64,000 bases of DNA. Origin: Lewinella sp. W8 (lineage in GTDB: Bacteria > Bacteroidota > Bacteroidia > Chitinophagales > Saprospiraceae). The stretch is taken from contig NZ_SNAQ03000015.1 in NCBI RefSeq assembly GCF_004375085.3, positions 1 through 64,000 of the forward strand, read 5' to 3'. Below, piece by piece: positions 3,789 through 8,158 of this stretch (position 1 is its first letter; each line of letters starts with the position of its first letter). The position numbers were made by a program, and so were the translations under genes. Below the pieces are notes generated by a model, which ran no database searches, had not been told where the DNA came from, and saw only the letters and a list, made by a program, of their open reading frames with translations.

Positions 3789-4751
3789 TTACTTCCCAAA
3801 CACGTAGGAGCCGTCCACGGCTTTGCGGATGTATTCTCCCCAGGTGAGATTGTCCTTACCGGGTTCCTGCGCCTGGGCGCGCTCGATGGCGTACTTGGCG
3901 GCGTGCTCGATCACCCATTCGAAGTTCTCCTCGCCTACGCTGAATTTATCGGCGTCGGGGGCGGGGTTACAGAAGTCGATGGCGTAGGGGACGCCGTCCC
4001 GGATGGCAAATTCCACGGTATTGAAGTCGTAGCCCAGCCAGTTGTTGAGCCGCAGGACGTAGTCGTGGATGGTGGCCAGGAGTTCGTCACTCACGTCGTG
4101 GTGGCACCGGTAGCGGTCCAGGAATTCGTTGCGGGGCTCGTAGTGCATGATCTTCACGTACTTACGGCCGATGCAGTAGCAGCGGAAGTAGGCGGTGAAG
4201 TCAATGGCCTCCTGGAGCATCATCACCAGCTGACCGGTTTCGGCGTGGGCTTTCCAGAGCTCGTCCGGATTGTGCAACTTGTAGACGCTCTTCCAGCCGC
4301 CACCCGCGTGGGGCTTCATGAAGGCCGGCCAGCCGATGTAGTTGAACATGCTTTGCCAGTCCAGCGGATGGGCCAGGTTGGTGAAGCTCTCGTCCGAGGT
4401 GTCGTCGGGGAGTTGGTGGCTGGGCAGCAGCACCGTTTTGGGTACCGGAACACCGGCGGGGCCTACGGAGAGGACGTTGTTGAAGAACTTCTCGTCGGCA
4501 CTCCACCAGAAGGGGTTGTTGATCACCGCGGTTCCGGTAGCGGCGGCATTCTTGAGCATGGCCCGGTAGAAGGGGACGTCCTGACTGATGCGGTCAATGA
4601 TGACCGCGTAGCCGGGGTTCAGCCCCTGACCTACCTTATCAATTTTCACGGGCTCGGCGGTAATGCCGTCCACGCCCATGGCGTTGATGCGATCAATGAG
4701 CGCAGGGGGGAAGGAGCGCTCTCTACCGTAAAGAATGCCGATTTTTTTCAT
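3789..4751 (-). CDS. ATP-grasp family ligase-like protein
   Basis: 320 residues from ATG 4751 (MKKIGILYG); an upstream in-frame start at 4772 would add seven residues. The N-terminal Rossmann-like part resembles RimK/D-Ala-D-Ala ligase preATP-grasp domains. The central part contains PAFMKPHAGGGWKSVYK, the typical Lys/Gly-loop of an ATP-grasp fold. The C-terminal part has NTVEFAIRDGVPYAIDFCNPAP, where an E and the D-x-N triad would bind magnesium. Family knowledge says such enzymes join a carboxylate to an amine or thiol through an acyl-phosphate. The substrate is unknown. It follows the permease-DtxR gene by 64 bp on the same strand, but a separate TACCTTTG promoter-like box sits between them. 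Confidence 0.8.
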   Translation of the reverse strand: MKKIGILYGRERSFPPALIDRINAMGVDGITAEPVKIDKVGQGLNPGYAVIIDRISQDVPFYRAMLKNAAATGTAVINNPFWWSADEKFFNNVLSVGPAGVPVPKTVLLPSHQLPDDTSDESFTNLAHPLDWQSMFNYIGWPAFMKPHAGGGWKSVYKLHNPDELWKAHAETGQLVMMLQEAIDFTAYFRCYCIGRKYVKIMHYEPRNEFLDRYRCHHDVSDELLATIHDYVLRLNNWLGYDFNTVEFAIRDGVPYAIDFCNPAPDADKFSVGEENFEWVIEHAAKYAIERAQAQEPGKDNLTWGEYIRKAVDGSYVFGK

Positions 4752-4795
4752 AGAATGGGTAATTTTTCTCAAAGGTCCAACGGACGGAACGCCAA

Positions 4796-4815: not shown

Positions 4816-6099
4816 CTATCGCTCCAGACCGGCTTTTTTGTCCCTCGTGCGGGGAATCAGACTGCCGTGGGGGTCCTGGGTCGGATAGCCGAGTTCCCGG
4901 TCTACCCGTTCCAACATTTCGTCGGTGAGCAAATGTTCGAGGCGTTCGGCTTCTTCGTGAATCTGATCGGCACTCAGGCCGGCCTCCTGGTTGAGGTAAG
5001 TTTCCCAGAGCCGGTGGGCACGGACCAGCCGGAGGGCCATCAGCTGGCCGGAATCGGTGAGTTTCAGCTCCTCGGCCACGACGAGGCCCTTGCTCCGCAG
5101 GGTTCTCAGTTGACGGTTCCAGGCCGCCAGGCTAAGGTCGAGTTGCTCCCGGATCAGAGCGGGACGGGGCTGCTGCCCGCCCTGCGACTGCCGGAAGATG
5201 CGCTTCAGAATGTCTTCCCGTTCGGTGAGTTGCCGCCGCTGGCGGCGGTAAATGGCCCGCGCCATCATGCCGCGCTTCGGGGCGAAGACGACCGTCAGCA
5301 GGTACAGGAAGGTCGCCACTAGGGCCATGGCCGGTCCGGGAGGCGTATTGAGCCACACCGCCACGACCATCCCGAGGATGGCCGAGAGCATGCCGATGAG
5401 GCCGGCCAGGACGATCACCCGTTGCAATCGCTGGGAAAGCAGCAGCGCCGTTGCCGCCGGCGTGATCAACATCGCCACGACCAGAATCACGCCCACCGTC
5501 TGCAGGCTGGCCACCACCGCAAAGCTGAGGAGGAGCATCAGGAAATAGTGCAGCAACTGCACACTGATGCCCATCGTTTCGGCCACTACCGACTGAAAGG
5601 TGGAGGTGAACAGGTAGCGGTAAAAGACCACCACCGACACGAGCACGTAAACCATCACCAAACCGGTGAGCAGTAAGTCGGTATCCGAAACACCCAGAGC
5701 GTAGCCGAAGAGGAAGTCTTTCAGATCCAGGTGCACGCCGTCCTGTCGGCTGATCCGGCTGATGAGGATCACCCCCAGGGAGAACATGGAGGTGAACACG
5801 ATGCCTACCGCCGCGTCGTTCTTCGTTTTCACGCGCTGCTGGATCCAGGTGATCCCGACCGCGGTGGCCAGTCCGGCCACGACCGCTCCGGTAAAGAAGG
5901 CCATCGCGCTGTAGCCCACGAGCATGTAGGCCACCACTACGCCGGGGAGGATGGCATGCGCCAGGGCATCCCCCACCAGGGACATATTACGCAGAACAAT
6001 GAAGCAGCCCAGTACGCCACACATGAGGCCCACCATGCTGCTGGCAACGATGGCCCGAATGGCCCAGACTTCCGAAAGGATGGAGAATAGTTCCGACAT
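4816..6099 (-). CDS. Metal ABC transporter permease fused to a DtxR/MntR-type repressor
   Basis: 427 residues from ATG 6099. Residues ~1-275 are an ABC-3 family permease (ZnuB/MntB/SitC type) with about eight membrane helices; FIVLRNMSLVGDALAHAILPG is the family signature region. After a basic linker (~280-295) come a winged helix (~290-350) and a DtxR/MntR metal-binding and dimerisation domain with H364 and E387, E390, H391 (numbered two higher, from the GTG at 6105), spaced like MntR His77, Glu99, Glu102, His103. So a Mn/Fe/Zn importer subunit carries its own metal-sensing DNA-binding domain on the cytoplasmic side. The GTG at 6105 lies inside the promoter, so ATG 6099 is preferred. No ATPase or binding protein gene is nearby, so partners must be elsewhere. 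Confidence 0.9.
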   Translation of the reverse strand: MSELFSILSEVWAIRAIVASSMVGLMCGVLGCFIVLRNMSLVGDALAHAILPGVVVAYMLVGYSAMAFFTGAVVAGLATAVGITWIQQRVKTKNDAAVGIVFTSMFSLGVILISRISRQDGVHLDLKDFLFGYALGVSDTDLLLTGLVMVYVLVSVVVFYRYLFTSTFQSVVAETMGISVQLLHYFLMLLLSFAVVASLQTVGVILVVAMLITPAATALLLSQRLQRVIVLAGLIGMLSAILGMVVAVWLNTPPGPAMALVATFLYLLTVVFAPKRGMMARAIYRRQRRQLTEREDILKRIFRQSQGGQQPRPALIREQLDLSLAAWNRQLRTLRSKGLVVAEELKLTDSGQLMALRLVRAHRLWETYLNQEAGLSADQIHEEAERLEHLLTDEMLERVDRELGYPTQDPHGSLIPRTRDKKAGLER

Positions 6100-6104
6100 C
6101 GACA

Positions 6105-6135
6105 CAAAGTTAGACTAATCTAACATTTTTACAAA
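6105..6135 (-). promoter_or_regulatory. Canonical Bacteroidota promoter of the permease-repressor gene
   Basis: On the minus strand TTTG (6135-6132) is followed after exactly 19 bp by TAACTTTG (6112-6105), matching TTTG-N19-TANNTTTG. Transcription would start within a few bases of ATG 6099, so the mRNA should be nearly leaderless. Confidence 0.7.
6109..6124. promoter_or_regulatory. DtxR/MntR-like operator palindrome
   Basis: GTTAGACTAATCTAAC has perfect 6-bp arms (GTTAGA and TCTAAC) around CTAA. The core TTAGNNTANNCTAA-like pattern resembles boxes bound by DtxR/IdeR/MntR proteins. It overlaps the -7 box of the gene that encodes the DtxR-like domain, the expected place for autorepression. Confidence 0.65.
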
Positions 6136-6183: not shown

Positions 6184-6432
6184 ATGAAAAAACATTGGGA
6201 AAAAATCGTGGGGGGTCTGGTGCTGGGGGTGATTTTCGCCCTCGTACTGCAATTCATTCCCTGGGGCAGCTTTGACGGCTTTCACTGGGACGGCGAGTTC
6301 TGGGGCAACGTCGTCACCTACTCCCTCACCTTCATCCTGGTCGAATACCTTGCCGGTGGAAGCAAAGACTACGTTGCGCGCCGCAACCAGCGCTGGAAGG
6401 TACGCCGGGAACGGGAGAAAGGGTCGGAGTAA
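6184..6432 (+). CDS. Small membrane protein, hypothetical
   Basis: 82 residues. There are two likely membrane segments (about 8-26 GGLVLGVIFALVLQFI and 43-57 VVTYSLTFILVEYL) and a strongly basic C-terminal tail (RRNQRWKVRREREK) that should stay in the cytoplasm. It is divergent from the permease-repressor gene, with ATGs 84 bp apart, so the metal-responsive operator could affect it too, though the operator is centred on the other promoter. I do not recognise a family. Confidence 0.65.
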   Translation: MKKHWEKIVGGLVLGVIFALVLQFIPWGSFDGFHWDGEFWGNVVTYSLTFILVEYLAGGSKDYVARRNQRWKVRREREKGSE

Positions 6433-6841: not shown

Positions 6842-8158
6842 ATGAGATACCTTAGCCTTTTCCCCCTTCTGCTGCTCGCTTTCGCCTGCACCGAGGAAGC
6901 TTCTACGAACCAGCAACGTTTCGTTTCCGACGACATCACCCACTTCTGGACCGCCTACGATCAGGTGGTCGCCACCCCCGACAGCGCCGAACAGGCCGAC
7001 ATTCTGCAGCGGGAATTCTTCACCCCCGGCACCCCGGGGCTGGAGGCCATCATGCGGGTCCGGAACTACACCCCCGAAGAATACCGGCAATCGATCCTGG
7101 CCTACCCGAAATTCTGGACCTCAATGCGGGAAAATATGCTGCGGGCTCCGGAAATGGCCACCGCCATTGAGGAGGGTATCGCCAAACTGGGCAAACATTA
7201 CCCCCACCTGGTCCCCGCAGACCTCTACTTTACCGTCGGGTGCTTTCGCACCAACGGCACCACCCTGGACAGCATTGTCCTGATCGGCTCCGAACTGGCC
7301 ATGGCCGGCCCGCAGGTTGACCTGAGTGAGTGGCCGGAGCGGATGGATGCCCTGCGGCCCTACATGGAAAGTTCCCCGATTGAGAACCTCGTTTTCCTGA
7401 ACGTCCACGAATTTGTGCACACCCAGCAGCCCACCAAAAGCGGGTACGATCTGCTCAGTCAGTGTATCTACGAGGGCGTTCCCGAATTCGTGGCCACGGT
7501 GGCGCTGGACCAAGCGTCGACTACGCCGGCCATCGCCTTCGGGCGGGCCAACGAAAACCGCATCCGTGACGTGATGGCCCGCGAGGTGGCCTCGCCTCTG
7601 AACTACAACTGGCTGTACAACAATACCGACAACCAGTTTGGGATGCGTGACCTGGGCTACTACGTCGGCTTCACCCTGGCCGAACGGTACTACGAGCGCG
7701 CCGACGATAAGATGGCGGCCATCAAAACCCTCATCGAGATGGATTACCGGGATACGGCCACCGTCGAACGATTCGTGGACGACCTCGGCTACTTCGACCG
7801 CCCCCTGGCCGAGCTGGCCGCCGACTACCGGAGCCGACAACCCAAAGTGGTTACGATTTCGGAATTCGCCAACGGCTCCAATGCCGTGGACCCCAGCCTG
7901 ACGAGCATCACCCTGGAGGTCTCCAAACCACTCGACGTCCGCTACCGATCCACCGGCTTCGGCCCGCTGGGTCGGGAGGGCGTTCCGGTCATTGAGGCCA
8001 TTTCCTTCGGCACCGACTCCCTGAGCGTTACCTATCAGGTGCAGTTGGCTCCGGGCCGCGACTACCAGTTCACCCTAGAACCCGGCTACCGCAGTCCCGA
8101 CGGAATTCCCCTCCAGCCCTACCTGGTGGAGTTTTCCACGCGGGCGGGAGATGATTAA
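6842..8158 (+). CDS. Lipoprotein, candidate zinc metalloprotease (DUF2268-like)
   Basis: 438 residues. The signal ends in LLAFAC with Cys16 as the lipidation site. The central part has VFLNVHEFVHTQQ with an HExxH zinc motif at 189-193, followed about 20 residues later by CIYEGVPEFVA, where Glu211 is a good third ligand, as in gluzincin-type peptidases and the DUF2268 family. The last ~90 residues (from about 345) form an Ig-like SbsA-type beta domain with a conserved FGTDSLSVTYQVQL region. It should act on the periplasmic or outer face of a membrane. Peptidase activity is inferred from motifs only; it might also be a non-enzymatic sensor. Confidence 0.75.
   Translation: MRYLSLFPLLLLAFACTEEASTNQQRFVSDDITHFWTAYDQVVATPDSAEQADILQREFFTPGTPGLEAIMRVRNYTPEEYRQSILAYPKFWTSMRENMLRAPEMATAIEEGIAKLGKHYPHLVPADLYFTVGCFRTNGTTLDSIVLIGSELAMAGPQVDLSEWPERMDALRPYMESSPIENLVFLNVHEFVHTQQPTKSGYDLLSQCIYEGVPEFVATVALDQASTTPAIAFGRANENRIRDVMAREVASPLNYNWLYNNTDNQFGMRDLGYYVGFTLAERYYERADDKMAAIKTLIEMDYRDTATVERFVDDLGYFDRPLAELAADYRSRQPKVVTISEFANGSNAVDPSLTSITLEVSKPLDVRYRSTGFGPLGREGVPVIEAISFGTDSLSVTYQVQLAPGRDYQFTLEPGYRSPDGIPLQPYLVEFSTRAGDD

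Follow-up and report, generated by a model that had tools for sequence, protein, structure and literature searches.

An ABC permease joined to a DtxR/MntR-like domain

The window analysed here, a stretch of 64,000 nucleotides from Lewinella sp. W8, carries on its minus strand a gene for a protein in which an ABC-3 permease is followed by a metalloregulator-like domain. The gene, its domains and its upstream elements are as follows, with the basis of each assignment in brackets.

4816..6099, minus strand: permease-DtxR fusion gene, ATG at 6099-6097, stop at 4818-4816, 427 aa (open reading frame, PF00950 and PF02742)
5284..6060, minus strand: ABC-3 permease domain, residues 15-273 (Pfam, own-genome search, Foldseek match to PsaC)
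5182..5268, minus strand: predicted unbroken helix, residues 279-307, which leads from the basic end of the membrane part into the DtxR domain (AlphaFold2, 30-row alignment)
4843..5232, minus strand: DtxR/MntR-like domain, residues about 291-420, without a third (SH3/FeoA-like) domain (Pfam, sequence and structure searches)
5086..5130, minus strand: position of the recognition helix, residues 325-339, unconserved among fusions (alignments of fusions against standalone regulators)
4852..5037, minus strand: metal-binding and dimerisation domain, residues 356-417, conserved, with ligands H363, E367, H382, E386, E389 and H390 (Pfam, alignments)
6109..6124, no strand assigned: candidate operator of the DtxR/MntR type, GTTAGACTAATCTAAC, in the spacer and -7 element (sequence and pattern searches)
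6105..6135, minus strand: Bacteroidota-type promoter TTTG-N19-TAACTTTG (pattern search)

Residue numbers follow the translation of window:4819-6102 on the minus strand and run one ahead of the ATG start at 6099, a start that is backed by relatives.

The two domains lie in one open frame, and the original prediction of a permease and a DtxR/MntR-type domain in a single chain was thus correct. The PF00950 match covers residues 15-273 (E 2e-70, 237.7 bits against a cut-off of 20.1), and PF02742, the C domain of the iron-dependent repressors, covers residues 349-418 (E 9.9e-25, 86.8 bits against a cut-off of 27). In sequence searches against solved structures, the permease part matched the pneumococcal manganese permease, and residues 294-420 could be aligned to the solved DtxR/MntR repressors that respond to manganese and iron. 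The N-terminal DNA-binding model of the DtxR family, PF01325, gave no match in the fusion protein of the window. The gene is the only ABC-3 permease gene identified in its own 6.18-Mb genome.

AlphaFold2 with a 30-row alignment gave a full-length predicted model with a pLDDT of 84 and a pTM of 0.73; a prediction from the single sequence (pLDDT 51) was of no use. Both folds were recovered from the full-length model by Foldseek, namely that of the permease PsaC (7kyp; target TM 0.91, 38% identity) and that of the manganese repressor DR2539 (8pvt; target TM 0.86-0.87, rmsd 1.4-1.6). The region that links them has a block pLDDT of 85-91 over residues 271-310, and a flexible linker was not predicted. 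A stretch rich in lysine and arginine directly follows the last membrane helix of the permease part, from which we infer, by the positive-inside rule, that the DtxR domain faces the cytoplasm. The claim of a complete winged helix held as far as the predicted fold is concerned, but PF01325 is unmatched, the wing is short and the recognition helix departs from the canonical form. An internal translation start that would free a regulator was also considered and rejected, as Met279/Met280 at the domain border are unconserved.

The metal ligands of the fusion are D297, H363, E367, H382, E386, E389 and H390, with a spacing of 23 between H363 and E386. In DtxR, the position that matches E386 is reported to be Cys102, and its partner is His79, which likewise gives a spacing of 23. 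In the MntR of Bacillus subtilis, His77 and Glu99 are reported to be 22 apart (PMC4805248). The predicted metal site is present in the fusion, and its ligand spacing is therefore DtxR-like rather than MntR-like as first proposed.

The surroundings of the gene were examined as well. An ORF at 3789-4772, which starts about 45-65 bp downstream of the fusion, has a sub-threshold match to ATP-grasp R2K clade family 2. Neither this ORF nor the small ORF at 6184-6432 nor the ORF at 6842-8158 had a tblastn match at E 1e-4 in 50 locus stretches, some of them from the own genome, and the idea of conserved neighbours beside the fusion was therefore rejected.

The operator and its copies in the genome

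The motif TTTG-N19-TANNTTTG has a single occurrence in the window, counting both strands, and this is the promoter of the fusion. The palindrome core TTAGN6CTAA likewise occurs once in the whole window, and the complete palindrome GTTAGACTAATCTAAC at 6109-6124 is situated inside TTTG-N19-TAACTTTG, so that a DtxR-type palindrome does overlap the -7 box of the gene's own promoter, as had been predicted. The -7 element is only 5 nt from the ATG (window 6099-6105), which suggests that the mRNA of the fusion may be leaderless or nearly so. The half-sites of the operator are TCTAA or CCTAA in most of the copies compared, and CCTAA repeats are reported to be read by IdeR (PMC8464063).

The exact 16-mer GTTAGACTAATCTAAC is found in two copies in the 6.18-Mb genome, and a third copy has two mismatches; each of the three immediately precedes an operon for metal transport or for a receptor and a regulator. 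The second exact copy precedes a gene for a TonB-dependent receptor, which is followed by a thioredoxin-like gene and then by a standalone DtxR/MntR regulator with PF01325, PF02742 and FeoA domains. Here the operator is likewise placed between TTTG and TATCTTTG. Together, the three genes look like one operon that follows the exact operator (L009:5148-8856, own genome C13), and a cupin gene diverges from the operator region. The third copy is located just upstream of the only gene for a ZnuA-type SBP, followed by an ABC ATPase gene (PF00005); this SBP promoter has the box, but a search for the complete TTTG-N-TANNTTTG motif gave no match there.

With the SBP and the ATPase encoded downstream of this operator too, and no ABC-3 gene other than the fusion, the importer is complete in this genome; its genes are divided between two loci that have one operator in common. 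The ABC partners, which were first thought to be missing, are indeed absent beside the gene; they are encoded at another genomic site, which the same palindrome precedes. The suggestion that an orphan permease might work mainly as a sensor was consequently rejected. With up to three mismatches, a reversed control pattern gave 11 and 10 matches in the own genome as compared to 3 and 4 for the operator pattern, and hence only the near-exact copies are meaningful. A fourth candidate operator at C66:140384, with three mismatches, was rejected as noise because the reversed control is commoner at that stringency.

The operator in related genomes

Among the close fusions, TTAGN6CTAA is located at most 250 bp upstream in 31 of 44 cases, whereas 500 dinucleotide shuffles averaged 0.26 and never exceeded 2 of 44, and a stretch inside the gene gave 0 of 44. 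The 44 close fusions are made up of 15 from the same order, the own one included, and 29 named loci, with L133 left out as a duplicate of L048. Of the 13 without an exact box within 250 bp, three (L052, L140 and L145) are situated inside operons that have a box at the operon start. Furthermore, in L090 (in genome G005), L140 and L154 one box stands at the start of an apparent operon that contains a standalone MntR, an SBP, an ATPase and a permease-DtxR fusion, with the SBP and the ATPase in one frame in L090. A fusion preceded by a box is also present in L120, from the culturable relative Lewinella cohaerens.

The operator is also found before standalone regulators. The strict pattern GTTAGANTANTCTAAC is present in 7 of the 149 genomes of the order, and its reversed control in 2 of 149. 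Three of the seven genomes (G148, G095 and G053) have matches to the fusion at the level of the DtxR domain only, with best E values between 1e-17 and 6e-21 and with a number of matches equal to that of their PF02742 proteins, and were on these grounds taken to be fusion-free; in all three, the strict-pattern site precedes a standalone mntR. The core box is found near the start of standalone genes at 11 of 30 loci, that is 9 of 24 without and 2 of 6 with a fusion in the genome. The broad pattern KTTAGAYNNRTCTAAM matched 72 of 149 genomes as compared to about 41 for the reversed control, and for this reason its genome-wide presence says little, and it is the position before metal genes that counts. 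Genome G068, from the same genus and rated 100% complete, has a standalone MntR, no match to an ABC-3 permease and neither the strict nor the broad operator pattern.

No other PF02742 protein was found in 6 of 43 fusion genomes, a count that omits G098, the fusion of which is cut. Three of the six (G142, G076 and G122, which are 68, 93 and 75% complete) contain the fusion and a box near the operon, and no box was found near the operon in the other three. Likewise, no standalone PF02742 protein was found in G011, G104 and G133, all from one genus; two of these have the fusion but no box in the 8-10 kb around it, and one has neither.

Conservation of the metal site and the recognition helix

To compare fused and standalone domains, we set 103 non-redundant fusions, of which 47 are close and 56 distant and which by their record titles span at least eight phyla, against 72 standalone regulators. 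Of 106 fused and 76 standalone domains, these 103 and 72 passed the filters on identity (95%) and coverage (80%); the sets were restricted to fused proteins with a permease score above 60 bits and to standalone proteins shorter than 300 aa. The metal ligands are retained in the homologs: H363, E367, E389 and H390 are invariant in 103 of 103 fusions, and position 382 is a histidine in 45 of 47 close and 47 of 56 distant fusions, the remainder having an aspartate. Position 386 is a glutamate or aspartate in 47 of 47 close and 48 of 56 distant fusions, and D297, in the place of Asp8 of MntR, is an aspartate in 47 of 47 and 17 of 56, respectively.

The conservation of the metal and dimer region is 0.65 and 0.62 in the two groups of fusions and 0.64 in the standalone regulators (15, 16 and 52 sequences), whereas that of the recognition helix is 0.28 and 0.32 as compared to 0.54. 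Met331, which is near-invariant in the standalone regulators (68 of 72), is found in none of the 103 fusions. At the base-contact columns (326, 327, 330 and 331, matched by alignment to the base-contact region of IdeR/DtxR), identity where the metal domains are 65-75% identical is 0.12 in the close and 0.14 in the distant fusions but 0.82 in the standalone regulators. The medians per sequence are 0.11 (n=47) and 0.15 (n=38) for the fusions as compared to 0.79 (n=66) for the standalone regulators, a comparison among related sequences for which P values are not to be taken literally. Within the own genus, where four fusions and five standalone regulators were compared, the identity of the metal domain is equal (0.85), whereas that of the DNA-facing positions is 0.33 in the fusions and 0.80 in the standalone regulators.

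The domain models gave a similar picture. PF02742 matches 30 of 30 fusions and PF01325 only 7 of 30 (best E 0.0016), whereas 11 of 11 standalone regulators, the own one and 10 others, match PF01325 at E 8.5e-11 or better and PF02742 too. HTH_45, a generic winged-helix model, matches 7 of 30 fusions (best E 1.1e-5). The recognition helix of the fusions has kept its hydrophobic core and has a net charge of +3.0 and +2.9, compared to +2.3 in the standalone regulators, while the region from helix 2 to the wing has a charge of +2.3 and +2.2, compared to +3.2. A basic helix with a hydrophobic core speaks against a simply dead helix and, along with the generic winged-helix matches, suggests that the helix is folded and may touch something. 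DNA binding by the fused domain, perhaps of another specificity, is thus possible. Judged from these alignments, the fused domain has retained its metal site and dimer fold but shows no recognizable DNA-reading surface.

Probable natural loss of the fused domain

Three loci from metagenome-assembled genomes of the Saprospiraceae (L155, L156 and L157) encode permeases that are 55-62% identical to the window permease and end after the membrane part. In these loci, tblastn found no remnant of a DtxR-like domain, and each of the genomes contains one PF02742 protein, a standalone one with a frame length of 229-252 aa, and one ABC-3 gene. The three permeases are nested among the fused proteins in the permease tree, with FastTree support of 0.825 for a 33-member and 0.927 for a 39-member group and a support of 0 for a 15-member node, and this position suggests that the fused domain has probably been lost. 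The box is nevertheless retained 34-83 bp before the start of the match in all three, and the fused domain is therefore not required for the presence of the box. A fourth close permease without the fusion, in L153, has no box directly upstream and sits behind an SBP-ATPase pair.

A proposed two-level feedback on metal import

We favor the hypothesis that the standalone MntR reads the box and that the fused domain is a metal sensor on the transporter itself, and we give this reading a probability of roughly 55%. In its favor are the three near-exact copies of the operator in the own genome, the box before standalone mntR genes of fusion-free genomes and before the unfused permeases of L155-L157, the invariant ligands next to an unconserved recognition helix in the 103 fusions, the scarcity of PF01325 matches among the fusions, the single ABC-3 gene in most genomes and the confidently predicted helical link. 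According to this hypothesis, the gene product would be the membrane subunit of an ABC importer of the manganese/iron type, with the binding protein and the ATPase supplied from another operon. Of 22 genomes selected from the close group and its relatives, 21 contain exactly one ABC-3 gene and one contains none. A single gene per genome suggests that the permease would act as a homodimer, in which two DtxR-like domains would come to lie side by side under the membrane. Metal-loaded standalone MntR would occupy the box and block the RNA polymerase at three promoters, so that the permease, SBP-ATPase and TonB-receptor operons would be switched off together. The paired fused domains would sense the cytosolic metal, and uptake would be adjusted or stopped when the internal metal level is high. 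Feedback would thereby be exerted at two levels, on transcription by the free MntR and on transport by the fused MntR-like domain.

Two adjacent permease genes, both with a DtxR-like domain, were identified at ten of 80 loci in the Planctomycetota and three further phyla, which again corresponds to two domains per transporter. These are operons of the order SBP-ATPase-permease-permease (L167, L169, L171, L173, L176, L181, L185, L186, L187 and L189) from the Planctomycetota, Latescibacterota, Gemmatimonadota and Omnitrophota. A broader proposal, to which we assign slightly less than an even chance, is that the DtxR/MntR domain has in many phyla become a gate of the importer, keeping the metal sensor and the dimer, giving up sequence reading and closing transport directly at high cytosolic Mn or Fe, while a sister standalone MntR that reads the same metal shuts off transcription.

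Several observations count against the preferred reading. The Q43A variant of IdeR is reported to still bind the consensus with its affinity kept (PMC8464063), so that the loss of a base contact is tolerated there, and the chlamydial YtgR, which is a fused domain, is reported to repress DNA targets (PMC5599777, PMC7755916, PMC6504234). In addition, the three incomplete genomes G142, G076 and G122 have the box and the fusion with no other regulator found, an exact box within 250 bp is absent from 13 of 44 close fusions, and the core box is near the start of no more than 11 of 30 standalone loci.

Alternatively, the fused domain could itself repress its own promoter and the two others that carry the box in a metal-dependent manner, whether cut free by proteolysis or still tethered to the membrane. 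A permease with its own DtxR repressor has been published for the YtgCR protein of Chlamydia (PMC5599777, PMC7755916). YtgR is reported to be cleaved from YtgC and to repress the ytg promoter with Fe2+ (PMC5599777, PMC7755916), the fold and the basic helix are kept in the fused domain, and no other PF02742 protein was found in the three incomplete genomes with box and fusion. However, the recognition helix is unconserved in both groups of fusions although the box is conserved, PF01325 is hardly recognizable in the fusions (7 of 30), the box persists where the fused domain is absent, and the operator is common to the fusion and the standalone MntR. Moreover, the predicted link is a helix with no disordered cleavage site, and Met279/Met280 are unconserved as an internal start. 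We therefore consider this explanation unlikely, at about one chance in four. Of the self-repression that was first suggested, the intact metal site and the operator on the gene's own promoter remain, whereas the fused domain as the reader of that operator finds no support, given the sharing of the box with the standalone MntR, its retention without the domain and the lack of conservation of the recognition helix in 103 fusions.

The domain could instead be a module for dimerization or assembly of a homodimeric permease, or a site for metal handover, with a structural metal and no regulatory role. The conservation of the dimer and metal domain but not of the DNA face would fit such a role, as would the one permease gene per genome that was seen in the close group and the ten of 80 loci with two adjacent, domain-bearing permease genes. 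Yet L155-L157 manage without the domain, there are distant operons that pair one fused with one unfused permease and would thus have a single domain per transporter, and a structural role alone would leave the conservation of nearly all sensor ligands unexplained, all of which makes this explanation improbable. It is also conceivable that the labor is divided such that the fused domain titrates or competes with the standalone MntR, for example by forming heterodimers or retaining it at the membrane. The genes for the fusion and MntR are located behind the same operator and the dimer fold is common to both, but L155-L157 keep the box and MntR without the domain; we consider such an interplay very improbable.

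The fusion itself is already known, as the original prediction acknowledged, and has been reported from 11 phyla in a review (PMC5599777). Among the papers listed by searches of the open-licence part of PubMed Central, we found no report of a DtxR-type domain as a transport sensor, nor of the loss of the DNA-reading helix in the fusions, of an operator shared with a standalone MntR or of domain loss with the operator kept. If the gate hypothesis is true, the published permease-repressor model would be the exception rather than the rule for the fusions, and a transcription-factor domain would have been taken over for post-translational metal sensing. The ABC importers would gain a new regulatory fold, and there would be reason to change the annotation of fusions in at least eight phyla, for many of which the label "repressor" would be misleading.

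Comparison with known systems

The YtgCR protein of Chlamydia (CT069/CTL0325) resembles the fusion in that an ABC permease is followed by a C-terminal DtxR-like domain with conserved metal ligands, and regulation of the transporter operon has been ascribed to this domain (PMC5599777, PMC7755916). Unlike in YtgCR, the operator is here common to a standalone MntR and the link is predicted to be helical. Furthermore, the DNA-reading helix is unconserved across the 103 fusions, a set that does not include the helix of the chlamydial YtgR.

The standalone regulators MntR, DtxR, IdeR and DR2539 are similar to the fused domain in fold (target TM 0.86-0.87 to 8pvt) and metal ligands. However, the fused domain is without a FeoA/SH3-like domain, has a short wing and a non-canonical recognition helix, and is joined to a membrane protein. 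Likewise, the manganese ABC importer PsaBC (7kyp) has the same permease fold (target TM 0.91, 38% identity), but the PsaC chains match the permease part only and are without the fused sensor.

Among the ABC importers, the added regulatory domains of ModC and MetN are reported to cause transinhibition by the internal substrate (PMC10710835). The logic proposed here from architecture and conservation would be similar, in that a cytoplasmic domain would bind the substrate inside the cell and halt transport. In ModC and MetN, however, the regulatory domains are attached to the ATPase and have other folds, whereas the domain in the fusion is attached to the permease and has the DtxR fold.
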